This document shows positions 22,538 to 56,189 of a stretch of 64,000 nt of DNA, piece by piece. The DNA lies in NCBI RefSeq assembly GCF_000716445.1, contig NZ_JNWK01000009.1, positions 1 to 64,000 on the forward strand. Reading direction: 5' to 3'. Position 1 is the first letter of the stretch; every line of letters starts with the position of its first letter. The position numbers were made by a program, and so were the translations under genes. The notes under the pieces were generated by a model. It made no database searches, was not told the DNA's origin, and saw nothing but the letters and a program-made list of their open reading frames with translations. Source of the stretch: Streptomyces wedmorensis (GTDB taxonomy: Bacteria > Actinomycetota > Actinomycetes > Streptomycetales > Streptomycetaceae).

Positions 22538-24175
22538 CTACTTGTAGTACCGCATCAGCTCTCCGTTGGCCCGCAGGTGGTACAGCTGGGTGCTCGAACT
22601 CGCGATCATGACCGGGATGGGGCGGCCCGACAGTCGGAGGTGGCTCACCTGCCCCACCTCGCCGCTCGGCGTGTGCCGGAAGATCTCTCCATTGTCGAGG
22701 AGCTGGTACACGTCCCCGGCGGAGGCGCTGATCTCCAAGGTCCGCAGGTCGGTGTCGACCGTGTCCCAGGACGTTCCTCCCAGGTGCCGCAGGATCTGAC
22801 CGCTGGCCAGCCTGAACTGGTACATGACTCCGCCGCCGGCCTCGATCCGGGTGGCGCCGCTGCCGGCGAAGGCGAGGAGCTCCCAGCCGGTCAGGGGCGT
22901 ACCGGTGTACCGGAAGATCGCACCCGTGGTGTGCCGCTGGTACAGCTGGTTGCCGTCGGCGACGATCTGAGCCGTGAACGGGTTGTTGTCCAGGAGCTGC
23001 CACCCGGTCATGGGCGTGCCGGTGTACCGGAAGATCGCGCCGGAGTTGTGACGCTGGTAGAGGTTCCCTCCGGACGCGGTGAGCTGCGCGGTGGCGGTGT
23101 TGGCGTCCAGTTGCTGCCAGCCCGCCAGCGGGGTGCCGGTGTACCGGAGGATCGCGCCGCTGGTGTGACGCAGCTGGTACAGCTCGCCTCCGTCGGCGAC
23201 GATCTGTGTCGTCGTGGGGTTCAGGTCGAGTGCCACCCAGCCGATCATGGGCGTTCCGGTGTACTCGAAGATCGCGCCCGTGCTGTGGCGCTGGTAGAGC
23301 CGGTTGCCCGACGCGGCGAGCTGGGCGGTGGCCGGGTTGCCGTCGAGCTGCTGCCAGTAGAGGCTGCGCGCGCGCCTCTTGTCGCTCTCCGTCGGCACCC
23401 GCCTCAGGGTGTTGGGTTCGAAGAACGCCCACATGACGTCATGCTGCATGCCGACTCCGGCCGCGTGCCGCATGCCGATGAGATGGCCGATCTCGTGGAG
23501 GGCGACGCTCTCCACGTCGAAGCAGTCGGGCTTGGCCCCGATGTGCCACTTGTGCTCGTCCTTGTCGAAGTGGAGCGGCTTGGGCATATCGGGCGTCCCG
23601 CACCCCGGCGGCGGGAAGGAATGTGCGTGGCGTGGGCCTACCAGGAGGGGGTAGTCGGGGTCGTTCGCCGGAACCCAACTGACCATGAAGTCGGGGTTCG
23701 CCCCAGAGGACACCTCGGTGAAGGTGATGGGGAGGAGTGCCTGCCACGTGGCGAACGCGGTCCGCACGGCGGTGAACTCGTCGTCACCGGGTATCTGCAC
23801 GGTCCCCGCGCCGAACGCGTAGGTGAAGTGGTTCTTGTCCCAGGCGCACATGGGCCCGTTGACGCTGTGGAGGATGGGCTCTCCGATCGCGCGGAAGACC
23901 GGGTCACCCATGAACCCGCAGCGGGACTTCAGCATGACCTCGCGCGTCCGTTCGTCGAACGAACCCGTCGGCGTGAGCGCGCTGTGCTCCTGGAACCAGG
24001 TCAGGGCCAGTGAGGTGATGCCGTCGAGGCGCCCGGCTTCGTAGGAGTGAGCGGGAAGGTACCCCAGCTCTTCCAGGAACTTCTGAACGTACTCGAAGCC
24101 GTCCTGCTTCTGACCGGGTTTCGTGGTGGGCACGCCGGCGACGGTGGGTCTCGACGCGGTGGTGTGCTGTCCCAT
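22538..24175 (-). CDS. Matrixin-like zinc metalloprotease with cysteine switch and propeller repeats
   Basis: 545 aa, GAAGGAG before the ATG. Residues about 25-80 resemble the peptidoglycan-binding-like prodomain of animal matrix metalloproteases, ending in a cysteine-switch motif SRCGFMGDP (Cys86; animal form PRCGVPD). The catalytic domain (about 95-275) has the MMP structural-metal region (HAHSFPPPGCG, then LHFDKDEHKWH), the zinc site HEIGHLIGMRH (H227, E228, H231, H237) and a Met-turn at VMWA (M248). From about 280 to the end are six or seven ~39-residue repeats (LYQRHSTGAIFEYTGTP type) suggesting a tachylectin-like beta-propeller, perhaps for glycan binding. No signal peptide. Cotranscribed behind the FHA-monooxygenase gene. 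Activation by Cys86 release is inferred from the family. Confidence 0.85.
   Translation of the reverse strand: MGQHTTASRPTVAGVPTTKPGQKQDGFEYVQKFLEELGYLPAHSYEAGRLDGITSLALTWFQEHSALTPTGSFDERTREVMLKSRCGFMGDPVFRAIGEPILHSVNGPMCAWDKNHFTYAFGAGTVQIPGDDEFTAVRTAFATWQALLPITFTEVSSGANPDFMVSWVPANDPDYPLLVGPRHAHSFPPPGCGTPDMPKPLHFDKDEHKWHIGAKPDCFDVESVALHEIGHLIGMRHAAGVGMQHDVMWAFFEPNTLRRVPTESDKRRARSLYWQQLDGNPATAQLAASGNRLYQRHSTGAIFEYTGTPMIGWVALDLNPTTTQIVADGGELYQLRHTSGAILRYTGTPLAGWQQLDANTATAQLTASGGNLYQRHNSGAIFRYTGTPMTGWQLLDNNPFTAQIVADGNQLYQRHTTGAIFRYTGTPLTGWELLAFAGSGATRIEAGGGVMYQFRLASGQILRHLGGTSWDTVDTDLRTLEISASAGDVYQLLDNGEIFRHTPSGEVGQVSHLRLSGRPIPVMIASSSTQLYHLRANGELMRYYK
22870..23345 (-). repeat. Tandem ~117-nt coding repeats in the matrixin gene
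   Basis: At least four copies spaced about 117 nt, recognisable on the plus strand by CCGGTGTACCGGAAGATCGC-type text near 22909, 23018, 23132 and 23247. Each encodes one propeller repeat ending YTGTP-x-x-GW. DNA similarity between copies is high, implying recent expansion or gene conversion. Confidence 0.7.
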
Positions 24176-24293
24176 GGCGGACTCCTTCGGCGTCGATGGG
24201 AATCGAACCGAGTCCTGCAGGAGCCGGGGTGCACCTTCAGTCTCCTGCGGGGCGACAGCCTCCGCAATCCGTTCTCCATCGGCACGACCGTGG

Positions 24294-26189
24294 TCAGGAG
24301 GTCGCCGGGGTCTTCGTCGCTGTGGGGGATGGGTCCTGTTGGTAGAAGATGTCGATGTCCACCTCCTCGCCGCCGACGGTCAGGGTGTCCCACGCTCCGC
24401 TCTCCCACAGGGTGCGCAGGGTGGAGGAGTCGAGGGAGTCCAGGTGGTTCCGGAGCGTCGAGTCGTCGGGCATGCCGGGGAGGCGTGAGGTCAGCCGGTC
24501 GCGGATCGATCGCAGTCGTTCCATGAGGGCGTCGATGTCCGCGTTCCTGTCGAGGTCCTTCCCTTCGGACTCCTCGATGCTCTGGGCGATCTTCTCCTTG
24601 ATCGGGCGGCTGACGCCGTTCTCGTCGGTGGTGATCATCGTGTTCCAGGCGCGGCTCTTGTGCCGGTACTGGAGCATGGACATGGCCGCTTCGTGGCGTG
24701 CGAAGTCGGCGTCGCGGAACGGCCTGCCGGTCCAGGCTCCGTTGAGGGTCCGGGCGAGCGATACGGCGGAGCCCAGGCCGCTGTTGAGCCCGCGGCCCGG
24801 CCAGAAGTGGATCGCGTTGGCGGCGTCGCCGAGGAGGAATCCGTACGTCCCGGGGGAGGTCGACGTGGCCGAGTGCAGACGGGTGGTGAACCTGGGCCGC
24901 TGCACCATGTCGAGCCGGAAGGCGGTGACGGCCCGCAGGTTCTGTTCGGCGACGCCGAACAGTGTCAGCCCCTCCAGGACCCGCTTCCACAGGGCCGAAC
25001 CCTTGACCATGGCGGGCAGGAAGAGCGTGCTGTGCGTCGAGCAGTGGAAGTCGCCGTGGTCATCGCGTCCCATGACGCACGGGCGTGAGGCGATGCACTC
25101 CTCGAATACGTGCCGGACCGGATCGATTCCGACGACTTCCGCGGCCTCTTCGTCGGTGAGCCGCATGTTCAGGAATCCCTCGCCGCGCAGGGCGTTGAGG
25201 AGAAAGCGGTTCTGGGCCACCGTCAGCAGGACCGTCATGGGGTCCGTCAGAGTCGATGTGACGCGCAGGCCCAGGACGACGTCCTGAACGTGCTGACCGT
25301 GCAGCGAGTAGATGGACTTGTCGGCGTTGCCGAACTTGTCGGCGAAGTGCTCCCGCGTTCGGGACCGGCCGCCCTCGCAAATGGCGAGTACGTGATCCTT
25401 GGTCCCGGACTTCTGGTGCTCGGCCGGGTCGAACGTCTCGGGGACCAGCCGAATGCGGTCCGGCTTCTCGTTGGCCAGGTCGAGAAGCGTGTCCTCGATG
25501 TAGGCGATCCGGAGGTTCCTCGGGCTGCGGCCGCGGATCGAGTCGGGGCCGACCGGCCACATCTCGGAGTACGCGTCGCCGCGGAACAGCCGTTGCTGCA
25601 CTTCTTCGGGGAGGTTCAGATACTGGCGGCTCTGCACCGTGACGACCTGCTGCCGGCGGACGTTGCCCTGGCTCTCGCTCTTCCAGACGACCTTCGGACC
25701 GTCCTGGGTCCAGCGGCCGTCGTACACGGTGATGGCGACGCGGTGCCCCATGAGGTGTTCCAGGAGCAGGGCGAAGCTCAGGCCGACGGGACCACCGCCG
25801 GAGACGGTGACGTTCAGTACCGGCCCCGCCGCCAGTGCCGCCTGCGAGGAGGGGCCGAGCGGGCGCAGCACGGAGAGGTCGAGGATGGTCTCCATCGCGT
25901 CGGCCGCTTCGAAGCGGAAGGTCTCGGTTCCTATCGCGATGAGGTCTCCGGGCTGCAGTTCGTGCGAGGTCACGCGCGTCCCGTTGACGTGCGTTCCATT
26001 GCTGCTGCCGCTGTCGTACAGCACGAATCCATGGCCTTCACGACGTACTTCGGCGTGAAATCGCGATACGTTCTCGCCGACTATGACTATGCTGTTTTCG
26101 CCATTGCGGCCCAAGGTGACCGGTGTGCTTCCGATGGGGAACTGCTTTCCCGTCAGGGAGCCTTGATGGCCGACAAGCCGAGGGGGCAT
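24294..26189 (-). CDS. FHA domain fused to an FAD-dependent monooxygenase-like domain
   Basis: 631 aa. Residues 1-98 form an FHA domain with the phosphothreonine-binding set: G27-R28, SRFH (42-45) and N64-G65. From about 125 an FAD-binding Rossmann fold begins (VSGGGPVGLSFALLLE), with the second FAD motif GFLLGDAANAIHFWPGRG near 450, whose surroundings resemble MICAL and aromatic-hydroxylase monooxygenases. The C-terminal 130 residues are charged and helical. FHA plus flavoenzyme in one chain is rare: docking on a phosphorylated partner would place an oxidising enzyme on a protein target, as MICAL does with actin. No signal peptide. First gene of the minus unit with the matrixin, divergent from the amidase operon. 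Reaction and target unknown. Confidence 0.8.
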   Translation of the reverse strand: MPPRLVGHQGSLTGKQFPIGSTPVTLGRNGENSIVIVGENVSRFHAEVRREGHGFVLYDSGSSNGTHVNGTRVTSHELQPGDLIAIGTETFRFEAADAMETILDLSVLRPLGPSSQAALAAGPVLNVTVSGGGPVGLSFALLLEHLMGHRVAITVYDGRWTQDGPKVVWKSESQGNVRRQQVVTVQSRQYLNLPEEVQQRLFRGDAYSEMWPVGPDSIRGRSPRNLRIAYIEDTLLDLANEKPDRIRLVPETFDPAEHQKSGTKDHVLAICEGGRSRTREHFADKFGNADKSIYSLHGQHVQDVVLGLRVTSTLTDPMTVLLTVAQNRFLLNALRGEGFLNMRLTDEEAAEVVGIDPVRHVFEECIASRPCVMGRDDHGDFHCSTHSTLFLPAMVKGSALWKRVLEGLTLFGVAEQNLRAVTAFRLDMVQRPRFTTRLHSATSTSPGTYGFLLGDAANAIHFWPGRGLNSGLGSAVSLARTLNGAWTGRPFRDADFARHEAAMSMLQYRHKSRAWNTMITTDENGVSRPIKEKIAQSIEESEGKDLDRNADIDALMERLRSIRDRLTSRLPGMPDDSTLRNHLDSLDSSTLRTLWESGAWDTLTVGGEEVDIDIFYQQDPSPTATKTPATS

Positions 26190-26815: not shown

Positions 26816-27571
26816 ATGACGATCAAGAACATGCAGTTCGCCTGCCCGAAGTGCGGCGAGGTGTCGTCGTACGCCGTGCAGACGAACGGCGAGGTGACCG
26901 AGCAGTCGGGTCTGGCTTCGCACCAGAACCTGGGAAACCTGCGGAGCCTCGCGGTTCCCTACAAGAACAGTCCGAACCGTGACGCGTATGGCCCGCTGGT
27001 CCCGCAGGGCATCGTCGTCCACTACACCCAGGGCAGGTACGAGGGAGCCATCGGCCACTTCCAGAACCCCGCGTCCAAGGTCTCGGCGCACTTCATCGTC
27101 GCCAGGGACGGCCGGCGCGTCCAGATGGTCCCGCTGCCCGACCCCGACACCAACGGACCCAGGGACGGGCGGTACACGGCCTGGCACTGCAAGGGAGGCA
27201 ACACCCGCTACTTCGGCATCGAGCACGAGTTCGGGTACACGGGGGCCACCTACCCCGCCGACTGGACCGAGGAGATGATGGACTCCTCGGCGGAGCTCTC
27301 GGCGTACATGTGCGTCCTGTACGGCATCCCGATCGAGGTGCCGCTCGCCCCGAACGAGCGCGACTGGTTCACGGGCTTCGGCGGTCACTACAACGTGCCC
27401 GGCAACAGTCACACCGACCCGGGACCGTACTTCCCGTGGGACTACTACATCAACCGCGTGGAGTACTTCGCGAGCCGCATGGCCGACAGCCCGTCCGGCC
27501 CGACCCTCACCTCCGGTACCCCGATCCAGACGGCACAGGGGTCCGAGGCGCCCTCCTACCAGACGCTCTGA
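26816..27571 (+). CDS. N-acetylmuramoyl-L-alanine amidase (Amidase_2 fold) with N-terminal Cys knuckle
   Basis: 251 aa, GGAGA five bases before ATG 26816. After a short CPKC knuckle (C10, C13) comes an AmpD/PGRP-type amidase: zinc ligands H69 (IVVHYTQG), H191 (GGHYNVPG) and D201 (SHTDPGPYFPW), with E136 (GIEHEF) in the catalytic position. It would cut the muramic acid-peptide bond of peptidoglycan. Remarkably, there is no signal peptide or membrane anchor, so it needs another route to the wall or acts on internalised or foreign peptidoglycan. First gene of the plus-strand island operon, 22 nt before the first giant gene, which suggests it is a cargo or partner of that assembly. Confidence 0.85.
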   Translation: MTIKNMQFACPKCGEVSSYAVQTNGEVTEQSGLASHQNLGNLRSLAVPYKNSPNRDAYGPLVPQGIVVHYTQGRYEGAIGHFQNPASKVSAHFIVARDGRRVQMVPLPDPDTNGPRDGRYTAWHCKGGNTRYFGIEHEFGYTGATYPADWTEEMMDSSAELSAYMCVLYGIPIEVPLAPNERDWFTGFGGHYNVPGNSHTDPGPYFPWDYYINRVEYFASRMADSPSGPTLTSGTPIQTAQGSEAPSYQTL

Positions 27572-27593
27572 CCGGCGTACGAGGTGACGCCTC

Positions 27594-30500
27594 ATGATCG
27601 CCTCCACGGTGACCGCGCTCACTGCCTGTTCGGTCGCACCCGGCCGTCTCGACCTGTTCGTGGGCGACGGCGACGGCTGCGTATGGCACAGGACGCGCAC
27701 GGAGTCCCACGACGCGGTCCGAGGACAGTGGAGTGCGTGGCACTCGCTCGGCCGGCCGTGGCCGTCGCCCGGAGCGCCGGAGCGCGCCGGCTGGCTGGCC
27801 GCGTTGCGTTCCGGCCCCGGCCGGATCGAGCTCCTCGCCCTGGGCGGCGGCCGGGGGGCGAAGCACAGGCTCTTCGCGGCGGCCCGTGACGGGACCGTCG
27901 ACACACTCCGTGAAGAGGCCGACGCCGAGGCCGGAAACACCGCCGGTGCCGAGGCGGGCGGCGGAGCCGGTGACGTCGTCGACGATGTCCTCGGCGACGT
28001 GGCCGGCCACGGCTGGACCCCGTGGACGTCCCCCGACCCGCTCGCGGGGCGGCCTCCGGCGACCGCCCCGCCGCTGACGGACGAGCAGTCGGCGCTGCTC
28101 CGCAGACGAGTCTCCGAGGGTCGGCGTTCCGACGCCGACCCCCGGCCCACCGGCTTCGCCGCGACGGAACGTGACCTCTTCGCCGTCGCCGGTCGCAGAC
28201 TGTGGCACCGCATGTGGACGGAGAGCACCCCATGGGAGGACCTCGGAGGCGACCTCACCTCCGACGACGGGAGCGCCCCCCACCTCGCCGCCGTCCACGA
28301 CGAGGCCGGTCCCACCCACGTGTTCGCCGTCTGGGCCGGTACGGCCCTGATGCACCGGCAGCTCGACCGCACGTGGTCCGACTGGCGGCTCATCGACATC
28401 TGGGCCGACGTGCGGGCCTACCAGGCGCTGCGTCCCGAAGACCTCGTCGCGCTGACCGTCCGCGGCAGCGGACTGCGCGAACGGGTCCGCGCCGACGGGG
28501 TGGTGGAAGTCCTCGCCGCCCAGCCCGACGCCCGACTCGTCGTCGAGTTCCCGTCGCAGCACATCGCCGAGACCGTCTCCCAGACGGGCACGACCAGCCA
28601 GGCGCGGATCGCGGGACCCTCACGGCTGGCCTTCGCCATCGGCCGGGAGGCCGTGCCGCTCACGGTCGACGGCGTACTGACCGCCATGGGCAGACTGCCC
28701 CTGGTCGCGACGCCCGGGACCACGGGGGCGGAAGACGCCCGCCTCGAACTGCCCTGGCGCCTGCTCGTGCAGCTGCCCACCGGCGCCCACTGCACGCATC
28801 ACACCCAGCCCGCCGTCGGCCACGACGGCATCACCGAACTGTGGCACAGCCGCATCACGCGCCCCGACGGGGCCGACGCGCTGCGGGTGAGGCCCGTCAA
28901 GGCACTCCCGGACGAATCGGCCCTCGCCACCCCGCTCGGCCGCCACACGGCGACGATCGCCGCCCTCGGGGCGCAGTCCGCCGATCCGCCCGTGACGGTC
29001 GACCGGCTCATGCTCAGCGCGTTCGGCGCCTGGTTCGACGCCTCCGCCTCGTGGCCCACCCTGGACTGGACCCACCGGACCGCGATGGGCCGCGACCACT
29101 ACGTCCGCGTCCTCACCCGCGGCGCGCTCTTCCCCTTCGGACACCGGGCCGCCTTCGTCGAGGTCACCGAGCGCCGGTTCGACCGACAGACTCCGGCCGT
29201 GGCGGCGCTCCGCACGACACGCACGCTGATCGTCACCGAGCCGACGCGCCACTACGGCATCGGCGACGGCGCCGGCAGGGCGTACGAGCGTGCCTTCCCC
29301 TTCCAGGAGGTGTCCGTCGAGCCCCGGCAGCTGACGGGCCTGGACCCGGCGGTGTGGCTGCCCGGCAAGGCGTTCTGGCCCACGCAGTCGGGAGCGGCAG
29401 TCGAGTTCACCATTCGCGCGCGGGCGGACCGGGAGGTCGTCGACTTCCGGCTGCCGATGCTGTTCGTCGACGACGCGGCCGTCGGCACCTCCCACGCCGC
29501 CTCTCACGACGCCGAGTACGCCCGCGGACCGCGCTCGGGCGTCCAGCGTGCCACGGGACACCCCACGCGAGAGATCGGCCGCAGGATCGCGCTCGCCATG
29601 AAGACCGCCACCCAGCCGCTCGAAGGCGCGGTCCAGGAAGTACGGTCGATGTCCTTCGGCGGCACCGGTGCCGCCCTCGCCGCGAACGGCGTCGGATTCC
29701 ACCCCCGCGTCACCCGCATGGAGGTCGCGCTGCCGGCGGTACGCCAGCTGACCGGATCGTCGCCGACGGTGCCGGCCGAGTTCTCCAAGGCGTTCCTGAC
29801 GGCCACGGGCGGCCAGCGGCCCGAGGTCCTGCTCGCCCTCCTGGAGCCGAAGGTCATCGACTTCGCCGCGGCCGGGGCGCGTACGGGCATGGTCGCCGCG
29901 CCGAACATGGCCGTCACCGAGATCTCCCGGCTGGCCGGACCGATCGCCGGAGGCCCCTTCCCGCCGAGGCCGCAGGACATGTTCGCCGAGGACGCCAGAC
30001 TCTTCGGCGTCATCTCGCTCCGCCGCATCGTGTCCGTCATCACCTCACGGCCGCAGATCACGTGGTCCGACGCGGTCGGCGCGCCGTCCGCGAAGCTCAC
30101 CTGGAGCGAGAAGCTGACGACGGCGGTGGAACCCTTCCACCCGAAGACGCCCACGTCCCAGGTCTTCCTCGAGGTCCTCTCCCAGGTCGTCGCCGGCCGG
30201 CCCCAGCTGCGCACGACCGGCGAGGTCACGGACTTCACGCTGGAGATCCCGACCCGAGCCTCCGCCCTCGTCGTCCTCACCTTCAAGAAGGTCCGTTTCA
30301 CCGGCGACTCCGGAGCGAACCCCTCCCTCACCTTCGAGCTCGCGGACGCACGGCTCGCCGGGAAGCTGAACTTCGTCAGGACGCTGGCGGAGAAGATCCC
30401 GCAGGCGGGGCGCGGCGGGCCGCGTGTCGAGGCCTCCGCGCTCCAGATCCGGGCCACGTACACGATCGCCGTTCCCACCCTCGGCATGGGCGTCTTCACC

Positions 30501-31154: not shown

Positions 31155-31157
31155 CCC

Positions 31158-34937: not shown

Positions 34938-34939
34938 CC

Positions 34940-35941
34940 ATGGTCGACCCGGTCTTCCAGATGTATCCCGAGGAGGGGCCGCTGCGACTCGCCGCGGGAT
35001 CGCCACCCAGTACTCCGGTCGCCTTCCAGGTAGGTGCCCAGCTGTCGGGCGTGTTCCTTCGCCTCATCAAGGCGGGGACGGAGTGCGCGCCTCCCGGGGA
35101 ATCGGCCGTGGTCGTCGAACTGCGCGCGGGAGAGGGCGATTTCGTGCCGGTGCCACGCGGACCGGACACCGTCACGATCGATGACGCCTCCCTGACGCCG
35201 GTCGCCACGGCATCCTGGATCCCTGAGCCCCGGGGCGTCATCCTGATCAGCGTGAGCATCGGCAAACCATCCGAACGGCCCTGGGAGATACGGATCACGA
35301 ACAAGGCGCCGGTGGAACTCCTCTTCGTCTGGGTCGTCTCGGACCTCGAGGACGACACCCGTCAACCGCGGCTCATGATGGAACGGTCCCACGGTAGGGA
35401 AGCCCTTCTGGGAAAGCCCGTCGGCGACATCGTGGTGAACGTGGCCAATGTCGGTACGCGAGAACTCACCATCGACACCCCGGCGGGAACCGACCTCGGT
35501 AACGGGTTCCTCCTGGACGAGAGGACGTCGCCCGTCCTTCCGAACGCCTGCGGGCACCTCCGTATCAAGGTCGCCCCCATCGAGTTCGTTCCCGGCGGTG
35601 TCGGATTCGTCAGGCACAGCACCGACTTCACACTGCAGGCCGACACCCGCGACGTGGAGGAGCGGACGCTCCACCTCACACGCTCCGAGAAGGTGAGCAA
35701 GGAGAAGGAAAAGGAGAAGGAGAAGGAGAAGGAGGGCAAGGAGAAGGAGAAGGAGGGGAAGGACAAGGAGAACAAGGACACGCCGGACGAACTGATGATG
35801 GTCGGTGACCTCTTCCCCACCCCCCTCTCGCCCCTCGTCGCCTGGGCCGGTGCGGCCTCCCCGCACGTGCACTTCATCCCCCAGGAGCTGCGCCCCGACG
35901 TGTCGACGAGCGCCCTCGTCCACGAGGACCCGGCGCCGTAG
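34940..35941 (+). CDS. Beta-sandwich-like protein with Lys/Glu-repeat linker
   Basis: 333 aa, starting two bases after the previous stop. Residues 1-250 look like two Ig/beta-sandwich units (WEIRITNKAPVELLFVWVVS and GDIVVNVANVGTRELTIDTP are typical strand pairs). A strikingly regular KEKEKE segment (about 250-280) follows, then a Pro-rich tail ending with VHFIPQELRP. The KE block should form a long single charged helix acting as spacer. No signal peptide. Third member of the giant-protein operon, 16 nt before the ATP-grasp partner. Candidate adaptor, or substrate of the ATP-grasp enzyme; no direct evidence for either. Confidence 0.65.
   Translation: MVDPVFQMYPEEGPLRLAAGSPPSTPVAFQVGAQLSGVFLRLIKAGTECAPPGESAVVVELRAGEGDFVPVPRGPDTVTIDDASLTPVATASWIPEPRGVILISVSIGKPSERPWEIRITNKAPVELLFVWVVSDLEDDTRQPRLMMERSHGREALLGKPVGDIVVNVANVGTRELTIDTPAGTDLGNGFLLDERTSPVLPNACGHLRIKVAPIEFVPGGVGFVRHSTDFTLQADTRDVEERTLHLTRSEKVSKEKEKEKEKEKEGKEKEKEGKDKENKDTPDELMMVGDLFPTPLSPLVAWAGAASPHVHFIPQELRPDVSTSALVHEDPAP
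35697..35778 (+). repeat. AAGGAG-type hexanucleotide repeat encoding Lys-Glu
   Basis: Imperfect array of AAGGAG/AAGGAA units, interrupted by GGCAAG and GGGAAG. It encodes the KE block of the upstream gene. All units are multiples of three bases, so length changes would alter spacer length without breaking the frame. Each unit also resembles a ribosome binding site. Confidence 0.75.
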
Positions 35942-48432: not shown

Positions 48433-51400
48433 TCACGGGGCCATGAGCCGTTTGGCGGGCAGGATGACCCTGACGGGCTGCTGGAAGCACTGGCGGGCCG
48501 TCCCGGCCGCGCTCCTGCCCCAGACCAGGCCGCCGTACGAGACGTTGGGCCGTAGGGTTCCCGGCGCGTGGGTCGCGGCCAGGAAGGCGTCCTTGGAGTC
48601 GAAGAGGTGACTCCATTTCAGGTCGTTCCAGTCGTTCGCCTCACCGGGAGTGTTCGGCGGGGTGTACGGGCCGCCCCAGGCGCCGGGGGGCGGCGTGGTG
48701 GAGAGCGCCTCGGGGTCGGGGTCGTCGAGTCCGAACCGGGGTTCGGTGGGCTGCTCCGCGATGACGAAGCACCAGGGCGACGCGTTGAGTTCGGTTTCGG
48801 TGAGCTTGAAGCCCACCATGGTGGTGTCGGCGTCCAGACCGCCGCGGAAGATGGGGTGCCGGGCGCCGTTCTCGTCGGGTTCCGTGCCGATCAGCGGAGC
48901 CGCGTAGATGATCGCGCCGGGGTAGCGGCGGAGCAGGGCGCTGCGCAGCAGCAGGACCACCCGGTCGGGCGGGCCGGTGAGGTGCGCGCCCAGCGGGAGC
49001 TCGCGCTTCCACGTGTCCAGCGACTCGTGGTCCGTCCCGTACCCCCAGAACGAGGCGAAGTAGGTGCCGCGCTGGTCGGTGGGGTACTCGCGCCAGCGCA
49101 GCTCGCGGGCGAACTCGTGGTTGAGACCGACCATGTACGAGGCCACGAAGGGCGGGTTGGTGACGGCGAGGACCGCCGTGTCGGCGGGGATGTGTTCGAG
49201 GCCGCCGAAGAGCCACTCGTTGGACTGTTCGGACAGCGGCGGCCACATGGGGTCGGGGAAGACGGGCGCCCACTGCACCGGTGCTTGCGGGTCGGTGCCC
49301 GCGGGCCGATCGACCCGGGAGGCCACCACCGCGGGCACCGTCACCGACGGGTCCGTCAGGGCCACGATGCCGTTCTGCGAGGTCCCGGTCGGGAAGGGTT
49401 CCCGGTGCGGGATCGGCGGGGCGTCCGACGGGCCGAGGACCCGGTCGTGCGCCGAGACGACCATGTCCTTGACGTTCCCGGGACTCGCGTCGAGCACGGC
49501 GGGGGCGGGCAGCCGGTCCTGCTGGCCGCCGAGCAGTCCGCCGCCGGTGAAGACGTCCAGGGGCAGGGTGCCGGTGGCGTGCCAGCGGTCGACGAGGTCC
49601 TTGAGCTGCCCCGGCTCCCAGGGGTCCTGCCCGCCGGTGCCCTCGGCCGCGACGAGGATCTCGCCGTAGCAGTCCGCGCTCCACTCACCGCCGACGCTGC
49701 TGGGGGTGTCCCAGTCCCAGTCGCCCGGACACGTACCCCGGAAGGTTCCGTGGTGGGTGTCGGAGCTCCAGGTCCCGGTGAACACGCCGTCGGACGACGA
49801 GTTCCAGGGGTCCCAGGTGCCGGTGCACACCCCGCGCCACACGCCGCGCTCCTCGCCGGACTCCCAGGTGCCGGTGTAGAGGGCGAGCCAGGTGGGGTCC
49901 GTGCCGCCGGCGCCCGCGTTGTTGCTCCACGTGCCGTGGAAGGCGCCCTTCCACGTGCCCGACCGGTCGGGACCGACCCGCAAGGTGCCCGAACAGGTGC
50001 CCCGCCAGCCGCCGGCCGGCTCGCCCCTGCCGCCGTTGACGGTGTCCCACGGCCCGGTCCAGGAGCCGGTGAACCGCCCCGGCGCCGCCCCGGTGCCCAC
50101 CGCCCCGGTGAACAGGTCGAGTCCCGCCGGGCCGGTCCGTTCGGTGGGGAAGACCAGGTTGCCGTGCTGGTCGATCCTCGTCCTGGCCAGGAAGTTCTCG
50201 GGCGCCTCCGCCTCGGGCAGGGCGCCGAGCCGGAAGGACCGGTTGAGTCCGGCGGCGGGGAGCGGTGACGTGGCGGCCAGCTGTTCGGTGGTGACGTCGC
50301 GCAGCCGGGAGCGCGCGGTCGCGTCGGCCGCCACCTGCCGCCAGGCGTCCGGCGCGCCGTCCTCGGGCGCGAACACCTTCCGTACGGCGGCGAGCCGCTC
50401 CGCGGCGACGACGTCCTCGGGCGCGACGCGGAAGGCCACCGTGCCGTCCGGGTCGCGGCGGGGCACGGCGAGTCCGGTGGGGGAGGCCGCGACCGAGCTC
50501 AGCACCGTCGCGAACGGCGGCTCCGGGTCGTCCGCCGTCCGCCCCGCGAGCAGGCCCACCCGCCGGCTGAGGACGCCCATGGGGCGTACCGTGCGGTGGA
50601 ACACCGTGGTGGCCATGGCGTTCGGCAGGAGGCTCGCCCGGACCGACGACCACAGGGTGGTGTCCGCGGCCAGGGAGATCCGGCTCTGCAGCGGCGTCGC
50701 GAGGCGAAGGACCTCGTCGGCGGAGAGCGGCTTCACGTGCCGCAGGTGCAGGCGGCCGGAGACCAGCCGCGCGAACCGGGCCAGGTCGAGGAACCGGTTG
50801 GCCGCCTGTACGTCCACGAGCTGGCGCCACGCGGAGGCCATGAGGGCCTCCTGGTCGGCCTGCACGGTCCGGGCGCCGAGCCCCGCCACGACCCGCCACC
50901 GCGGGTCCAGGTTGAGGGTGTCGAGCCAGCCCGTCGAGGCCGGGTCGGCGCCCTTGCGCAGGGCGTGGAAGCCTCCGTACAGCGGGGGCAGGACGTCCGG
51001 GTCCTCGTCGCCGGTGCCGTCGCCGATCGGGACCAGCGCCTTCGCGAGGCGCTGCTGCCACTGGGCGCTCTGCGGGCCGGTGGGCCACGGGTCGCGGGGC
51101 AGGTTGCCGGGGGCCCGCAGGGCGCTCTCCACCTCCTGGACGACGGGTCCGGGGCCGGTCGCGAAGAGGCCGGGGCGGCTGACGTCGAGGGGCCGGCGGC
51201 CGGCGCGCGGAGGAAACGGGCGGGCCTTGAGCCGTGCCGCGAGGGTCTCGAAGTCCCCGGCCTCGCCGGTCGAGAAGACCCAGGAGAAGTAGACGGGCAG
51301 TTCGCACCGGGCGGTCGGGCTCGGGTCCCACGCGGGGGCGAGGGTGGCGTCCTTGGTGTCCTTGCCGAGTCCGGCGAGCTTGCCGGCCAGGAAGGAGGGG

Positions 51401-51972
51401 ACCAGGCAGGCGGTGTACGTGGTGTGCGGTTCCAGCTTGCGGGGCGCGAGGAGCCGGGAGACCGACCGCCGCGGGTCGTCCTCGTGGCCGGGGAGGGTCT
51501 GGGCGTGCGCCCACAGGTGCAGGGTCGTCGGATCGGGCAGCTCGCTGCCCATGACTTCGAGGACCGGCAGCGGCACGCCGGGTCTGCGCTGCGGCCGCCC
51601 CTTGGAAGTGGGCACGCAGACGAGGCTCAGCCAGGGGCGCAGCTCGCCCGCGTCACCGGCGCGCAGCGGGGTGAACAGCCAGGGCATCTCGCTGCGTTCG
51701 AACTCCACCAGCGGGAACTTGGTGGGCTCCGCGTCCGGTGTGCCGGGCATCGGGAAGACCCGCACGATCTCCTTGGGGTCGAGCGCCCGGACGTCCCCGG
51801 GGCCGTACACCTGGAGCGCGGGCACCGGGACCGGCCGGCCGGGCGGGCCATTGACGTGCGCGGTGGCCGCGAGCGATCCCCGTACGGGGGTGGTACGGGA
51901 CAGGTCGTCGGCGTCGGTGAGACAGGCGGCCGCGCCGTCCCGGTCCCAGGACGCGAACGTGTACACGGTCAT
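48433..51972 (-). CDS. 1179-aa protein with GTW repeat block
   Basis: ATG 51972 overlaps the previous stop (ATGA). Residues 1-600: alpha/beta body starting MTVYTFASWDRDG, with IVRVFPMPGTPDAEPTKFPL and LHLRHVKPLSADEVLRLATP. Residues about 635-770 contain repeated G-T-W/C elements every 10-17 residues (FTGSWTGPW, GTWKGAFHGTW, YTGTWESG, CTGTWDPW, FTGTWSSD, FRGTCPGDW), probably small beta-hairpins with stacked Trp as in carbohydrate-binding or antifreeze-like solenoids. The C-terminal 400 residues include NEWLFGGLEHIPADTAVLAV and RRYPGAIIYAAPLIG. No signal peptide or enzyme motif. Function unknown; the GTW block suggests ligand or surface binding. Confidence 0.7.
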   Translation of the reverse strand: MTVYTFASWDRDGAAACLTDADDLSRTTPVRGSLAATAHVNGPPGRPVPVPALQVYGPGDVRALDPKEIVRVFPMPGTPDAEPTKFPLVEFERSEMPWLFTPLRAGDAGELRPWLSLVCVPTSKGRPQRRPGVPLPVLEVMGSELPDPTTLHLWAHAQTLPGHEDDPRRSVSRLLAPRKLEPHTTYTACLVPSFLAGKLAGLGKDTKDATLAPAWDPSPTARCELPVYFSWVFSTGEAGDFETLAARLKARPFPPRAGRRPLDVSRPGLFATGPGPVVQEVESALRAPGNLPRDPWPTGPQSAQWQQRLAKALVPIGDGTGDEDPDVLPPLYGGFHALRKGADPASTGWLDTLNLDPRWRVVAGLGARTVQADQEALMASAWRQLVDVQAANRFLDLARFARLVSGRLHLRHVKPLSADEVLRLATPLQSRISLAADTTLWSSVRASLLPNAMATTVFHRTVRPMGVLSRRVGLLAGRTADDPEPPFATVLSSVAASPTGLAVPRRDPDGTVAFRVAPEDVVAAERLAAVRKVFAPEDGAPDAWRQVAADATARSRLRDVTTEQLAATSPLPAAGLNRSFRLGALPEAEAPENFLARTRIDQHGNLVFPTERTGPAGLDLFTGAVGTGAAPGRFTGSWTGPWDTVNGGRGEPAGGWRGTCSGTLRVGPDRSGTWKGAFHGTWSNNAGAGGTDPTWLALYTGTWESGEERGVWRGVCTGTWDPWNSSSDGVFTGTWSSDTHHGTFRGTCPGDWDWDTPSSVGGEWSADCYGEILVAAEGTGGQDPWEPGQLKDLVDRWHATGTLPLDVFTGGGLLGGQQDRLPAPAVLDASPGNVKDMVVSAHDRVLGPSDAPPIPHREPFPTGTSQNGIVALTDPSVTVPAVVASRVDRPAGTDPQAPVQWAPVFPDPMWPPLSEQSNEWLFGGLEHIPADTAVLAVTNPPFVASYMVGLNHEFARELRWREYPTDQRGTYFASFWGYGTDHESLDTWKRELPLGAHLTGPPDRVVLLLRSALLRRYPGAIIYAAPLIGTEPDENGARHPIFRGGLDADTTMVGFKLTETELNASPWCFVIAEQPTEPRFGLDDPDPEALSTTPPPGAWGGPYTPPNTPGEANDWNDLKWSHLFDSKDAFLAATHAPGTLRPNVSYGGLVWGRSAAGTARQCFQQPVRVILPAKRLMAP

Positions 51973-54641
51973 GGCCTCACCTCGTAGGCGGGCACGACCT
52001 GGAGGAGCCCCGACCGGCCCGTGACGGTCTTCAGTTGGGCTGCGGCTTCGGTGAACGTGTTCTTGGGGTGATGGACGGGGGCCGCCTTCAGCGTCTGGCG
52101 GCTGGCGATCGCGTACATGCGTTCCTTCAGCACCGGTGCGCGCACGGTCTTGGCGTAACGGGTGCTCAACTCGTGGACGAGGCTGCGGCCGACGGCACCG
52201 TACGGGAGGGCGGCCAGGAGTGCCGCGTCGGTGATCAGCCAGGGAGAGGCGGGGGCCGTACCGCCCAGCCACTTGGTCTCGTACTCGACCGGCACCGTGG
52301 TCCGGGGGGCGTTGTCCGAGGTGGGCGGCGGGGTCAGCTCGGCGCCGGAGCGGAACCGCTCGAACGCGGGCTGGGTGAGCTTCTGATCGTCCGTGAGGTC
52401 GAAGAAGTCGGCCCGCGCGAAGTCCTCCGTGACCGGTTTCGAGACCCCGGCCCCGGTGGGGAACGTGACGTCCACGTCGAACTTGGTCGGCTTGGGCAGT
52501 CTGCCCGGCCCGAACCGGGTCACCTCGATCCCCAGCGGCACCGTGCGCTGGCTGAACCGCACCCGCCCCAGGGGATGCAGGAGACGGCCGGCGGCCACGC
52601 CGTCGGCGCGCAGCGAGACCATCGTGCGCGCGTCGTCCGGCAGGACCGGCTCCCAGCTGCGGGGATCGTCCAGGACCCGTTCCAGGGCCCGGCGCACGTC
52701 CGGCGGCGGCGGGGCGACCGCCGTGCCGGTGCAGTTCCAGTGTTCGTCGAAGGGGAAGCTGACGTCGAAGAAGAGGAAGGACACGCTGGCGCGTCCGGCG
52801 ATGTGCCAGCACGGCGTCGGACCGTCCACGTGGACGCGCAGCCCGACGGAGCACAGCGTCGCCCCGGCGACGCGGAGCGCGAACGAGCCGCCGAGGTCGA
52901 GCATCACGCCGAAGCTCGGCTCCCAGCGCACCAGCGCGTCGAACGAGAGCCGCCCGGACACGCCGGTGCTCCTCGTCCCGATGACGGCGGACAGCTCCGC
53001 GCCGGCCTGGACGGTGCCGGGGGTGAGGGCGAAGTAGCCGGTGAAGACCACCTTCAGGAACGGGCTGTCCGCGATCGGGATCGTCAGGCGCTTCGGTGTC
53101 GGGAAACCCGCGGGAGGGGTGTAGCGGGGGTGGAATCCGCCGGCGCTGAGGATGAACGTCGCGTCCTGGCCCGACTTGGCCCGCAGGGCGAGACCCCCGT
53201 CCACCGAGGAGGTCAGCAGCCGGGACCCGGCCAGGTTCGCGTTGATCTCGACCAGTCCGTTGGCGGCGTCGACGACGCCCGCGACCGAGGCCCGCAGGTC
53301 GATCACCGGCGCCTGTGGGGCCGGCAGCGCGACCCGCAGCCGGCCGAGGATGCCGACCACCCCGCTGGGCAGTTCGAGCACCACACCGATGTCGGCCGTG
53401 ACGAACGAGACCGGACGGCCCCAGCCGATGCGGAACATCGGCCCGACGACCGTGCTCCCCGCCCGCGCGGGGAAGACCGTCCCCATGGTGGTCAGGATGC
53501 GCGGCGCCGCCGCCGCGGCGTCCGCGGGGAAGAGCAGGTCGTCCAGGTGACCGGACTGCACGACCGTGGCCAGGCCGGCCCGGTCCAGCGCGCGGCCGAT
53601 GCCGACCAGACCGCCGACGGCGTTGAGGGTGAAGGCGAGGCCCAGTTCGATGGCCGGGGTGAACTCGGCGCTCAGCGCCACGAGCACCGACGGCGGGCGG
53701 GGCTGCAGGATGCCGAACGCCTTGACCTCGACGAGGCCCAGGCTGAGCGAGAGCGCGCCTCGGCACTGCCCGTCGTGCTCGCCGAGGAACCCGCCGCCCT
53801 TCGCCGGGCCGAGCGCCAGGGTGAGTCCGATCCCCTTCGGCGGCACCACCGTCGGCGTGTACCCGCCGGCCGTCGGACGGATCTCGAGCCCCACCCCGTC
53901 GACCGTCGCGTCCGCGACGCCGAGCAGGGAGGCACGGAAGGAGGAGGTGAGCTGGAGCCCGCCGTCGCGCGCGGCCAGGTACAGCGAGGGCGCGCGCAGC
54001 CCGGCGGGGGCCCGGTCCAGGGGCAGGGCGATGCCCTTGCCGTTGCTGCCGCCTTCGAGCCGCAGCCCGCTCCTGTCGAGGTGGACGCCCAGACTCCCCT
54101 TGAGGGAGAGGCCGCCGGGGGCGAGGAGTTTCAGCAGCTCGTGGTCCACGAGCGCGAGCTCCATGCCGTCGGCCCGGAACGCGAGGGTGGAGTCGTCGGG
54201 TACGGCGGTGGGCAGGGCGAGCACGAGACTGATCCCGTCCCGTACGGCGAGTCCTGGCACCAGGTCGAGCGCGTCGCTCAGCCTGAAAGTGACGTTCAGC
54301 ACCGGGGGAAGGGTGGTGCCGAGCGCCTGTACCTCGGTGGGGCCGGCACGGAGGACGTCCGCGATGGCGAGCGACCAGTTCGGCGCGGCCCGCGTCGCGC
54401 CTCGCGCCGCGGTCCGCAGCAGGTCGACGAGGACCGGCCACAGGTCCCCCGGCGCCGCCCCGCTCGGCACCGCGAGCCGAGCGAGCAGTGCCTCCGGGGT
54501 GAGCGCGTCGGTGGGCAGTCCGAGCGCCTGTGCCAGGCGCTTCGGACGCTCGGTGGCGGGAAGCCCCGCGAGGTCCGGGAGCAGGAGGACGAGCCCGTCG
54601 CGGATGTCGGTGGCCAGCTGTGGCAGGGGGGCGGCTGCCAT
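51969..54641 (-). CDS. DUF6603-like giant beta-rich protein (890 aa)
   Basis: Start taken at ATG 54641 (MAAAPLPQLATDIRDGLVLLL); a start up to 21 codons earlier is possible and no clear Shine-Dalgarno decides. From about 230 onward it matches what I remember of the DUF6603 family: LSLGLVEVKAFGILQPR, FTPAIELGLAFTLNAVGGLV, PRILTTMGTVFPARAGS, FRIGWGRPVSFVTADIGVVLELP, GGFHPRYTPPAGFPTP and RASVSFLFFDVSFPFDEHW. The pattern is long, curved beta sheets. No catalytic role is known for the family. First gene of the minus giant operon after the ferritin-like gene (244-nt gap). Ends in an ATGA overlap with the next gene. Likely a structural subunit. Confidence 0.75.
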   Translation of the reverse strand: MAAAPLPQLATDIRDGLVLLLPDLAGLPATERPKRLAQALGLPTDALTPEALLARLAVPSGAAPGDLWPVLVDLLRTAARGATRAAPNWSLAIADVLRAGPTEVQALGTTLPPVLNVTFRLSDALDLVPGLAVRDGISLVLALPTAVPDDSTLAFRADGMELALVDHELLKLLAPGGLSLKGSLGVHLDRSGLRLEGGSNGKGIALPLDRAPAGLRAPSLYLAARDGGLQLTSSFRASLLGVADATVDGVGLEIRPTAGGYTPTVVPPKGIGLTLALGPAKGGGFLGEHDGQCRGALSLSLGLVEVKAFGILQPRPPSVLVALSAEFTPAIELGLAFTLNAVGGLVGIGRALDRAGLATVVQSGHLDDLLFPADAAAAAPRILTTMGTVFPARAGSTVVGPMFRIGWGRPVSFVTADIGVVLELPSGVVGILGRLRVALPAPQAPVIDLRASVAGVVDAANGLVEINANLAGSRLLTSSVDGGLALRAKSGQDATFILSAGGFHPRYTPPAGFPTPKRLTIPIADSPFLKVVFTGYFALTPGTVQAGAELSAVIGTRSTGVSGRLSFDALVRWEPSFGVMLDLGGSFALRVAGATLCSVGLRVHVDGPTPCWHIAGRASVSFLFFDVSFPFDEHWNCTGTAVAPPPPDVRRALERVLDDPRSWEPVLPDDARTMVSLRADGVAAGRLLHPLGRVRFSQRTVPLGIEVTRFGPGRLPKPTKFDVDVTFPTGAGVSKPVTEDFARADFFDLTDDQKLTQPAFERFRSGAELTPPPTSDNAPRTTVPVEYETKWLGGTAPASPWLITDAALLAALPYGAVGRSLVHELSTRYAKTVRAPVLKERMYAIASRQTLKAAPVHHPKNTFTEAAAQLKTVTGRSGLLQVVPAYEVRP

Positions 54642-54885: not shown

Positions 54886-55959
54886 TCACGGGGCCACGTA
54901 GCGGAACTCCGGTCCGTAGGTGGCGCCGCCGGCGCCGGGGACCGGGCGTGCCATCAGCCGTGTCGCGGGGTCCCGCAACGAGGACATCTGCCCCACCGCG
55001 ACCCACAGCAGGTCCTCCGCCTGGGACGCGTCGGTCTCCTGCCACGGCTTTTCCAGCGCGCGCAGCAGGTCACTGTAGGCCTGGTTGAACTCGTCGAGGA
55101 TCTGGATCGTCTCGGCGTCCGGTGCGGAGGGTCCCGTCCGGGGCCAGCCCCCTTCGGGCACGACCCCCATGGGCAGGGCCGTGGGCACCTCGATCCTGTC
55201 TCCCTTGAACTCCCACCTTCCGCTCTCCGGGTTCTTCCTCAACTTGCGCTCGTGGAAGATCTCCCGGAAGGCGTAGAAATGGGCGCGCTCTCCCGCCGCC
55301 CCCGGATACGGGTTCTCGGGCGAGGCGGACGTGCCCTCGCCCTGTTCCTTGATCACGTCGATGGCCGACTCGACGGCGGCGAGCGTGTCGAGGGGCACGA
55401 CGTCGTTCCCCTCACCGTGATGAGGCATGCGCAGGGTCAGCTGCCGTTTCCCGGTGATCCGCTCCGGGTGCGCGCGGAACGCTTCCAGGAGCGCGGTGTA
55501 GAAGGCCCCGATCGACGTGTGCTCCGCCACGGCCCGCACGAGCGGGTGGTCCGGTTCCTCGATGCGGGAGTACATGTCCACCGCATCCTTCGACAGCCCG
55601 CTGAGGAATACGGAGAGTTCGGGCCGCACACCTCCCGGAAGCGGGCCGGGGTACCTCGGCACCACCGTCTCGTCGGCCAGCAGGGGAGTCCCGCCCAGCG
55701 TGGTGACCAGGTTGCACGCCAGACCGAAGTGCGACATCTCGTCGAAGACGATCTCGCGCAGGGTGTCGACGACGGTGCCGTCCCCGGTCGAGGCGTCGAT
55801 CGACCACAAGCCGCACAGATACGGGGGGAGCGTGGCGAGTTCCAGCAGGACCGCCTGCTGTGCGGCTTCCCGCATCCAGTCGGTGTCACGCCGCTCCGCG
55901 GGCTGCTCCATCAGTTCGACGATGCGGTTGCTCCGGGCATACAGAAGCGCGTTCACCAC
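54886..55959 (-). CDS. Ferritin-like domain protein related to VioB/RebD
   Basis: 357 aa from GTG 55959, GGAAGGAG just upstream. It matches the ferritin-like domain first seen in the VioB/RebD imine-dimer synthases: E40 in LLELATLPPYLCGLW, EIVFDEMSHFGLACNLV with E74-x-x-H77, and later glutamates in AEHTSIGAFYTALLEAF and RAHFYAFREIF. These residues could bind a di-iron centre in a four-helix bundle. It lacks the large C-terminal part of VioB, and no amino-acid oxidase partner lies nearby, so violacein/rebeccamycin-type chemistry is unlikely. Upstream of the DUF6603-like gene with a 244-nt gap. Possibly an oxygen- or metal-handling accessory of the island. Confidence 0.8.
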   Translation of the reverse strand: MVNALLYARSNRIVELMEQPAERRDTDWMREAAQQAVLLELATLPPYLCGLWSIDASTGDGTVVDTLREIVFDEMSHFGLACNLVTTLGGTPLLADETVVPRYPGPLPGGVRPELSVFLSGLSKDAVDMYSRIEEPDHPLVRAVAEHTSIGAFYTALLEAFRAHPERITGKRQLTLRMPHHGEGNDVVPLDTLAAVESAIDVIKEQGEGTSASPENPYPGAAGERAHFYAFREIFHERKLRKNPESGRWEFKGDRIEVPTALPMGVVPEGGWPRTGPSAPDAETIQILDEFNQAYSDLLRALEKPWQETDASQAEDLLWVAVGQMSSLRDPATRLMARPVPGAGGATYGPEFRYVAP

Positions 55960-56027
55960 CGGTCTCCTTCCGGACGAATCCCACCTGGTTCCAGGGTCGG
56001 CGCGCGCAGCGGGTGCCGGAAGGCCCG

Positions 56028-56189
56028 TCAGTGCCGCAGGGCCTCGCTCGGATCGCCCTCGGCGAGGTGGCGGACGAGCCGTTGCGCGTTCCCGCGGACC
56101 TCGACGGTCTCACGGTCGGACTCCGGCCGGAACCGACCGATCTGCCGCAGGCGGGCGGGGTGAGGCGGGAGGGAGGAAGAGGGGCTCAT
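56028..56189 (-). CDS. Small hypothetical protein (53 aa)
   Basis: ATG 56189 has CAGGA about six bases upstream. The product has a Pro/Ser-rich start (MSPSSSLPPHPARL) followed by a charged helix (SDRETVEVRGNAQRLVRHLA) and EGDPSEALRH. It ends 68 nt before the ferritin-like gene on the same strand, so it may open that transcript. No family recognised. Soluble, no Cys; could be a small partner or a RiPP-like peptide, without evidence for either. Confidence 0.45.
   Translation of the reverse strand: MSPSSSLPPHPARLRQIGRFRPESDRETVEVRGNAQRLVRHLAEGDPSEALRH

Follow-up and report, generated by a model that had tools for sequence, protein, structure and literature searches.

The giant proteins encoded in this island belong to two modules, not one. 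The window, a stretch of 64,000 nucleotides from Streptomyces wedmorensis, carries on its minus strand the four genes DUF6603(A)-B-C-D (module 1) and on its plus strand the series amidase-g04-g05-g06-g07-g08 (module 2; Table 1). The A-B-C-D genes lie close to one another and travel together, and module 1 may be a widespread, still undescribed enzyme-carrying complex. Our best explanation, which we hold tentatively at a probability of roughly 0.4, is that A-D form a soluble cytoplasmic carrier of a co-translated enzyme encoded upstream of A, with a target outside the cell, and that module 2 is a separate system of similar design.

Table 1. Genes of the island, with positions in the window
Gene	Position	Strand	Description	Basis or remark
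g01	22538..24175	-	Matrixin (M10) plus peptidoglycan-binding domain, without leader	Pfam; neighbour, candidate member
g02	24294..26189	-	FHA domain; weak FAD-binding match below cut-off	Neighbour of module 2, candidate member
g03	26816..27571	+	Amidase_2, without leader; module 2 gene 1	Pfam, 82.7 bits
g04	27594..31154	+	1186 aa, beta-like at about residues 800-1100, paired with g05	Hydropathy, neighbourhood
g05	31158..34937	+	1259 aa	80 relatives found
g06	34934..35941	+	335 aa, K/E-rich linker	Linker read from sequence
g07	35958..36770	+	270 aa, partner of ATP-grasp protein	Neighbourhood
g08	36767..37681	+	RimK/graspetide-synthetase-like ATP-grasp	Pfam RimK, 31.6 bits
g09	38003..39229	+	Neprosin family, without leader, 408 aa	Pfam, 131 bits; start moved from 37850
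g10	39216..39527	+	103 aa, no assigned family	83% identity to L075 gene beside neprosin
g11	39494..40930	-	Repeat protein, C-terminal bacterial Ig (Big_3_5)	Pfam
g12	40966..42051	-	WD40 beta-propeller, downstream of D	Pfam
D	42051..43772	-	573 aa, unnamed family	At least 490 relatives
C	43775..48418	-	1547 aa, unnamed family	At least 1091 relatives; 317 encoding stretches in genome_contigs
B	48433..51972	-	1179 aa, unnamed family, 4-nt overlap with A	Family alignment
A	51969..54641	-	DUF6603 protein, 890 aa; module 1 gene 1	Pfam PF20248, 333.5 bits, cut-off 27
g17	54886..55959	-	Ferritin-like, 244 nt upstream of A	Pfam PF12902, 161.7 bits

An earlier note had described the island as a set of beta-rich giants lacking catalytic motifs, encoded in two convergent operons with short internal overlaps, together with leaderless hydrolases. 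The five proteins of 890-1547 residues (1186, 1259, 1547, 1179 and 890) and the one of 573 are where it had placed them. Pfam identifies the WD40 (g12), repeat/Ig (g11), amidase (g03), matrixin (g01) and neprosin (g09) proteins, and the K/E linker of g06 is read from its sequence. By a home-made hydropathy rule, the three hydrolases have no predicted signal peptide; a lenient rule flags g05, which we judge to be a false positive. The zinc motif of the matrixin, HEIGHLIGMRH, is intact. The start of the neprosin gene is better placed at 38003, because the homologues in loci L075 and L077 begin at the matching place. The 890-residue protein A does have a recognised domain, as a member of DUF6603 (333 bits against a cut-off of 27). 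The beta-rich character of the giants holds for A, whose hydropathy alternates strongly in a beta-like manner, and for the stretch of g04 given in Table 1, whereas hydrophobic moment, a weak measure, gives a mixed picture for C, B, D and g05. The two strands do converge, with g10 ending at 39527 and g11 at 39494. Overlaps of 1-4 nt are present at A/B, D/WD40, g05/g06 and g07/g08, but B/C, C/D and g04/g05 are separated by gaps of 14, 2 and 3 nt.

These gene arrangements go beyond chance, since the orders seen in the modules are found again in many genomes. For module 1, we analysed the best 79 of 317 related stretches from a genome scan, weaker relatives lying outside this set. A, B, C and D are ordered on one strand in 60 of the 79 loci, and the remaining 19 are truncated, with a contig end no more than 500 bases away. 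The median intergenic gaps are -1, 2 and 3 nt. Nine bacterial phyla are represented among the 72 loci in the tree, and a haloarchaeal plasmid carries PhoD-A-B-C-D in the identical order. In a separate Streptomyces set, 11 of 13 loci have the A-B-C-D order and two have C-D inverted relative to A-B; two contigs are present in both sets (L076/G133 and L079/G042). The DUF6603 family itself is found in 44 of 293 genomes of the order and in none of 14 control genomes.

The four genes have also evolved together. Their distance matrices correlate at r = 0.89-0.94 over 55 loci, a level that none of 500 shuffles attained, and any two-gene comparison gives a shared nearest neighbour for 35-45 of the 55 loci. 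Sister pairs that cross phyla (L102/L111, L128/L141 and L089/L115) are consistent across all four genes. C and D are fused in L094, L136 and L138 and in 8 of the 13 Streptomyces loci, which argues for contact between the two proteins. A second chassis is present in the genome of the window, on contig C1, and its PhoD-like gene overlaps A by 4 nt. Profile comparison with a divergent Streptomyces operon relates B to its counterpart B' (86.9%) and finds no recognisable relation of C' and D' to C and D.

An ordered, co-evolving set of four giant genes across nine bacterial phyla and a haloarchaeon is rare, and three of its four parts, B, C and D, are unnamed in Pfam and NCBIfam and have no significant relative in the PDB. 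The window proteins B, C and D gave no significant match in Pfam, NCBIfam, PHROGs or the PDB; in PDB profile searches B and C had zero matches and D had one, at E = 0.15. The same search with A returned 12 matches at E values up to 1, the best at 9e-4, all within the N-terminal 230 or fewer profile positions. Designed proteins make up 7 of the 12, and we take the matches to be due to chance. Pfam assigns no function to DUF6603 (PF20248), and its model includes neither the partners B, C and D nor the enzyme gene that precedes A. Neither the name DUF6603 nor a description of either operon appears in the literature searched, a scope that excludes preprints and most subscription journals. PADLOC models of anti-phage defence match none of eight proteins.

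A gene on the same strand abuts A on its upstream side, at a distance of up to 70 nt, in 44 of the 63 loci with A, and 19 of these 44 genes overlap A; genes farther away or on the opposite strand were left out. Thirty of the 44 fall into six enzyme clusters: PhoD-like (13), trypsin/NAL1-like (8), subtilase-like (3), PLD (3), galactose-oxidase-like (2) and M64 (1). The other 14 include three small genes and one for a WD40 protein. Pfam was run on representatives, for which some matches fall below the cut-off in L146, L089 and L114 and none is found in L121. In the window, the ferritin-like gene g17, which is part of the island picture, lies upstream of A instead, at 244 nt.

The type of upstream gene follows the chassis. 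Mapped on the C tree, it changes 10 times, compared with a mean of 24.9 and a minimum of 22 after shuffling; 40 of the 44 genes were scored, four being unlabelled by cluster, and the two clusters of small genes counted as a single state. Between PhoD and C, distances correlate at 0.73 over 13 loci. These enzymes are mostly leaderless, as the earlier note had observed for the hydrolases of the window: signal-peptide-like starts occur in 1 of 36 upstream proteins and in 74 of 420 others (p = 0.018, home-made rule), after eight of the 44 genes that begin at a locus edge were set aside. Among the chassis proteins, the same rule flags 5 of 62 for A, 2 of 70 for B, 2 of 73 for C and 1 of 69 for D. 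Some of the upstream enzymes may be inactive, because a pattern search finds the usual motifs absent from the subtilase-like proteins and the PhoD motifs incomplete: the first is present in all 14 members, but by strict pattern the second is in only 7 and the third in 5.

Other neighbours recur as well. Beta-propellers are fused to the chassis or adjoin it in some loci, and a WD40 gene occupies the position downstream of D, as in the window, in L075-L079 and L081. By tblastn, matches to g11 adjoin A-B-C-D in G133, G042, G236b and G212. A neprosin gene lies near A-B-C-D in L075 and L077, and a gene for a Tle1-like phospholipase lies near some A-B-C-D loci. The ferritin-like gene is placed as in the window in L075; it adjoins module 2 in G036, and L188 has it close to a g04-g05 pair.

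We hypothesize that A, B, C and D assemble into one large soluble cytoplasmic complex, which would bind the product of the gene upstream of A. This enzyme varies between clades and is a phosphatase, phospholipase, peptidase or oxidase. In the window, the bound product would be the ferritin-like protein. The complex would often also take in a beta-propeller. The enzyme would then get to an extracellular target without Sec or Tat, most simply through lysis of the producer, or else by an unrecognised route. If A-D do carry the adjoining enzymes, they would represent a widespread enzyme-delivery or enzyme-scaffolding system unrelated to phage tails, and this would account for the leaderless state of the normally exported hydrolases found here. 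Several points count against the carrier: in the window, the gene upstream of A codes for a ferritin-like protein and not a hydrolase, 14 of the 44 abutting genes lie outside the enzyme clusters, the enzymes encoded there could work intracellularly, and A-B and C-D are oppositely oriented in two Streptomyces loci. In reading the neighbourhood, we noticed no holin, export or lysis gene next to the operon.

In a different model, A-D scaffold the upstream enzyme for a cytosolic task, whose substrate might for instance be storage lipid, a phosphodiester or a protein, and there is no release from the cell. Leader-like starts are few in the operon, the archaeal A-D proteins have no leader by eye, many upstream genes encode phosphatase-, phospholipase- or peptidase-like enzymes that could act inside, and the ferritin-like and BTAD-regulator neighbours look cytosolic. 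However, proteins that act on or bind peptidoglycan are encoded nearby, namely amidase_2 (in the window, L105 and L088), M23 (L151) and peptidoglycan-binding proteins (L149 and L153), for which a cytosolic target is hard to see. The neprosin, M10 and M64 families are normally exported, which also counts against a purely intracellular role. We consider such a role unlikely, though it deserves serious attention.

The proteins could alternatively be exported or displayed at the surface by an unrecognised leaderless route, as enzymes associated with the wall or S-layer, with no release by lysis. For two haloarchaeal C genes the annotation reads 'BGTF surface domain', the Salinigranum D protein has a lamin-tail domain, and kelch, FG-GAP and TIG repeats, which are common in extracellular proteins, are found. 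This model seems quite improbable to us, as the Salinigranum proteins have no leader by eye, no secretion genes were noticed next to the operon and the operon spans phyla whose envelopes differ.

A bolder version of the carrier model would make A-B-C-D an undescribed machine shared by bacteria and archaea: a leaderless carrier particle unrelated to phage, built from the four large proteins, loaded with a co-translated, clade-specific enzyme and guided by propellers, which would bring lytic or lipid-active enzymes to other cells. A second invention of this design would then be module 2, matured by its ATP-grasp pair through action on the K/E-rich protein. We regard this version as possible but rather unlikely as a whole.

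The neighbouring phospholipases, amidases and peptidases recall effector sets, and one relative of g05 is labelled 'Baseplate protein J-like' by a source. Nevertheless, we think it very improbable that the island is a remnant or accessory of a phage, a contractile injection system or a Tc-like toxin. PHROGs profiles match none of seven proteins, none of 30 pattern matches in viral_contigs was confirmed as a relative of C, and the phage records contain one partial C match in 50,697. Among the 17 island proteins, Pfam identifies none of the sheath, tube or baseplate type, in agreement with the earlier note, and it finds no baseplate family in the 26 g05 relatives scanned. Sheath matches are present in 31 of 43 genomes with DUF6603 and in 160 of 244 others (p = 0.48), in a set of 287 genomes that we infer to be the 293 less G287-G292, so that the DUF6603 genome G292 lies outside it. 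The sheath match of the window genome itself is on contig C10. Families of the Tc type (TcA/TcB/TcC) are absent from the Pfam and NCBIfam scans of A-D, g04 and g05.

Module 1 shares features with known systems. Like extracellular contractile injection systems and the T6SS, it combines a multi-protein gene set with varying lytic enzymes, and Tle1-like proteins are a T6SS effector family; unlike them, the module has no sheath, tube or baseplate match and shows no association with sheath genes across the 287 genomes. As in polymorphic toxin systems, variable enzyme modules stand beside conserved large proteins, but in module 1 the variable part has its own gene upstream, which follows the clade of the chassis.

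The earlier note had proposed one particle or fibre, built from all the giants of the island, with the three hydrolases as cargo or with release by lysis. This part of its interpretation is not supported, since the distribution of the two modules across genomes disfavours one particle. It is true that the modules are juxtaposed in the window, that both are found in five further Streptomyces strains whose names are among the matches listed (Streptomyces sp. 5.8, where their locus tags are close, NPDC085481, NPDC017254, E-08 and NPDC056361) and that the ferritin-like gene can adjoin either module. However, module 2 recurs in three genomes of the same genus, G271, G036 and G196, that are not among the 44 with DUF6603; the negative status of 229 further genomes, G196 and G271 included, is read from their absence in the match list. 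No g04 or g05 matches surround A-B-C-D in the 13 Streptomyces regions read, seven plasmid regions, 20-33 kb long, with g04- and g05-like genes side by side contain no A-D match, and the modules are distant by locus tag in NPDC085481 and NPDC017254. In profile comparison, the sole resemblance between the modules is a weak one of A to g04 (32% probability and E 5e-4 one-to-one, falling to 6% with fewer g04 sequences), and other inter-module pairs stay below 1%. A single particle is highly unlikely, and the two modules, side by side in the window, are best explained as separately inherited. We do not take the A-g04 resemblance as homology and treat it only as a hint of similar beta architecture. 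Module 1 offers a concrete gene set for testing in harmless soil bacteria, and the split into two modules shows which genes to co-express.

Module 2 would follow a similar design but be a system of its own. The amidase_2 gene is kept beside g04 in G271, G036 and G196, and the charged run of g06 is conserved in the relatives from these three genomes. No Pfam or NCBIfam match was found for g07. The ATP-grasp protein g08 matches TIGR04187 (142.6 bits, cut-off 350), MvdC (85.3, cut-off 425) and MvdD (71.6, cut-off 475), and lies two genes behind the K/E-rich gene, which recalls the maturation of microviridin-type graspetides. In contrast to that pathway, every score is below its curated cut-off, no short precursor peptide was identified, and g08 is part of an operon of giant proteins; g06 and g10 are candidate graspetide precursors by position alone. 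The g07-g08 pair may modify a protein of module 2, for which g06 would be the obvious candidate. FHA domains, present in g02, are also fused to two of the 80 relatives of g05, and one relative of g05 is fused to phospholipase D.

The window lies at the beginning of contig C9, in a genome of 9.4 Mb, and sequence searches with the window's proteins place their closest relatives in Streptomyces. Gene calling and inspection of starts give 17 genes, including two runs that we treat as modules: the minus-strand genes A-B-C-D, which we call the chassis, and the plus-strand genes g03 to g08. An NCBIfam scan gives no further assignment for the giant proteins.

Genes of the island and other features in the window, in the same genome and elsewhere
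Feature	Content	Strand	Coordinates	Pfam result
g01	matrixin			assigned
g02	FHA protein		window 24294-26189	assigned
g03	amidase	plus		assigned
g04	1186 aa	plus		no match above curated cut-off
g05	1259 aa	plus		no match above curated cut-off
g06	335 aa, K/E-rich linker	plus		no match above curated cut-off
g07	270 aa	plus		no match above curated cut-off
g08	ATP-grasp	plus		assigned
g09	neprosin			assigned
g10	103 aa		window 39216-39527	no match above curated cut-off
g11	repeat/Ig	minus		assigned
g12	WD40	minus		assigned
D	573 aa	minus		no match above curated cut-off
C	1547 aa	minus		no match above curated cut-off
B	1179 aa	minus		no match above curated cut-off
A	890 aa	minus		DUF6603
g17	ferritin-like	minus		assigned
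tandem	two copies of a small-gene start		window 57580-58600	
g10 counterpart	small gene		L075 18845-19171	
L003	second ABCD operon, own genome		G000:C1:160000-179900, 754-18807	
MT835531.1	partial C match		33152-34342	
L180	g05-like gene and neighbours		14209-22217	

Within the genus, the A-B-C-D set is present in 13 of the 21 regions that we read around DUF6603 genes of other Streptomyces genomes, a second copy on contig C1 of the window's own genome being counted with them. Order and strand are maintained in 11 of these 13 loci, C and D are fused in 8, and in G236b and G212 A-B and C-D are in facing orientation. The remaining eight regions (loci L059-L074, in G016, G095, G099, G055, G125, G175, G229 and G054) hold a divergent operon, A-B'-C'-D', whose relatedness to the window is recognisable only for A and B; comparison of these eight loci gives no recognisable relationship of C' and D' to C and D, and D' itself is seen in seven. 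The own-genome copy (L003) is a second, divergent ABCD operon, in which a PhoD-like gene overlaps A by 4 nt and B carries FG-GAP repeats.

The chassis is also widespread among genomes at large. At least 1091 relatives of C (E up to 0.001) and at least 490 of D came from searches that scored only the candidates with most words in common. A scan of GTDB genomes found 317 stretches related to C, of which we read the best 80 (79 loci). Profiles of A-D place the four genes in order on a single strand in 60 of these 79 loci, with a kelch-cluster gene inserted between A and B in four of the 60 and C and D fused in three; each of the other 19 has its last core gene, on the incomplete side, at most 500 bases from a contig end. 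Median spacing is -1 nt for A-B, 2 nt for B-C and 3 nt for C-D. The 72 loci with a C row of sufficient length for a tree come from Actinomycetota, Pseudomonadota, Bacteroidota, Acidobacteriota, Nitrospirota, Verrucomicrobiota, Myxococcota, Cyanobacteriota and Chlorobiota. A plasmid of Salinigranum (Halobacteria) carries a PhoD-like gene, A, B, C and D in that order, and C matches occur in three further haloarchaeal plasmid records. No relative of C was confirmed in viral contigs, and 50,697 phage-collection records gave one partial match, at 38% identity, on a faecal-sample contig (MT835531.1) that may be a bacterial piece.

Over 55 loci the distance matrices of the four genes correlate at 0.89-0.94, a level reached in none of 500 shuffles, and for 35 to 45 of these loci two genes agree on the nearest neighbour. 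The cross-phylum nearest neighbours in C (L102/L111, L128/L141 and L089/L115) are nearest neighbours in all four genes. These correlations and agreeing pairs suggest that the operon passes between phyla as a whole, although the tree by itself is no proof of transfer. Taking the kept order, the tight spacing, the C-D fusions and the co-evolution together, we argue that A-D would operate as one complex.

A same-strand gene ends at most 70 nt from A in 44 of the 63 loci with A, and 19 overlap it. Typed by BLAST clusters with Pfam run on representatives, 30 of the 44 belong to enzyme clusters: 13 PhoD-like phosphatases (the match of L146 is under the Pfam cut-off), eight in a trypsin/NAL1-like cluster (L089 and L114 are under the cut-off and L121 has no Pfam match), three subtilase-like proteins in which the usual motifs were not found, three phospholipases D, two galactose-oxidase-like proteins and one M64 peptidase. 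A strict pattern search with three PhoD motifs finds motif one in all 14 members, counting the own-genome copy, motif two in seven and motif three in five. Because 10 changes of upstream-gene type suffice on the C tree (the minimum for ten states plus one) against a shuffled mean of 24.9, this type is specific to the chassis clade. A ferritin-like gene stands upstream of A at 244 nt in the window and 231 nt in L075.

Other features near the chassis were looked up because they stood out. In one or more loci they include amidase_2 (L088, and L105, 3 nt behind D), M43 (L138) and M64 (L078) peptidases, M23 with a peptidoglycan-binding domain (L151), a Tle1-like phospholipase (L136, with a DUF2235 gene in Streptomyces sp. 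NBC_01724), phospholipase D (also NBC_01724) and neprosin (window, L075, L077). Propellers recur beside or within it: WD40 lies behind D in L075-L079 and L081, A is joined to kelch in L121, and three long B proteins carry FG-GAP repeats.

Because the clade-specific enzyme gene is read out together with A, we argue that the complex would work alongside that enzyme or on its behalf. A simple hydropathy rule gives a secreted-like start to 1 of 36 upstream proteins, compared with 74 of 420 other genes of the same loci (p=0.018); among separate core proteins it flags 10 of 274. The main rival is a complex that stays inside the cell. Families that are normally exported occur here in leaderless form, and this, with the peptidoglycan- and lipid-active neighbours, leads us to favour an external target for the enzyme and exit by an unusual route, of which lysis would be the simplest. 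Sheath matches are no commoner with DUF6603 (31 of 43 genomes) than in the others (160 of 244), and so do not point to dependence on a contractile system.

The second module is narrower. Among 287 genomes, the order amidase-g04-g05-g06-g07-g08 recurs in G271, G036 and G196 (the raw translation is needed to see g06 and all of g07 in G196), and G211 has a partial g08 only. The earlier note read all the giants of both operons as one particle or fibre carrying leaderless hydrolases. Its observation is sound, with corrections; a single assembly is unsupported, since these three genomes fall outside the 44 of 293 that bear DUF6603. A widespread four-gene operon, hitherto undescribed and next to a second, narrower one, makes the better finding. 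Weighing against strict separation, both modules appear by name in search tables for five further Streptomyces strains: by locus tag they are close in sp. 5.8 and far apart in NPDC085481 and NPDC017254, and E-08 and NPDC056361 have both.

On plasmids, 10 of the 11 records with a g05 match also match g04, the two are adjacent in seven, and the pair occurs alone. Among the relatives of g05 are Bacillus proteins, two fusions with FHA and one with PLD. In G036 module 2 has a ferritin-like gene next to it, and in S. xanthophaeus such a gene, flanked by two BTAD regulators, is close to g04-g05. The best match of g08, far under the cut-off, is a ribosomal-peptide ATP-grasp model. The g08-like ATP-grasp genes of L190 (G306) and L192 (G296) lie near a protein of 552-592 aa, judged by eye to be a putative leaderless M6 protease, with no match to any giant nearby. 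In Rhizobium ruizarguesonis (L180), a g05-like gene is followed by one small gene and then a patatin-like phospholipase gene.

Within the window, g02 joins its FHA domain to a weak, below-cut-off FAD-binding match, an odd pairing. The neprosin-adjacent g10 is 83% identical to its L075 counterpart and is a possible neprosin partner. The tandem copies are near-identical, with a signal-peptide-like segment, and another small secreted-looking protein adjoins them.
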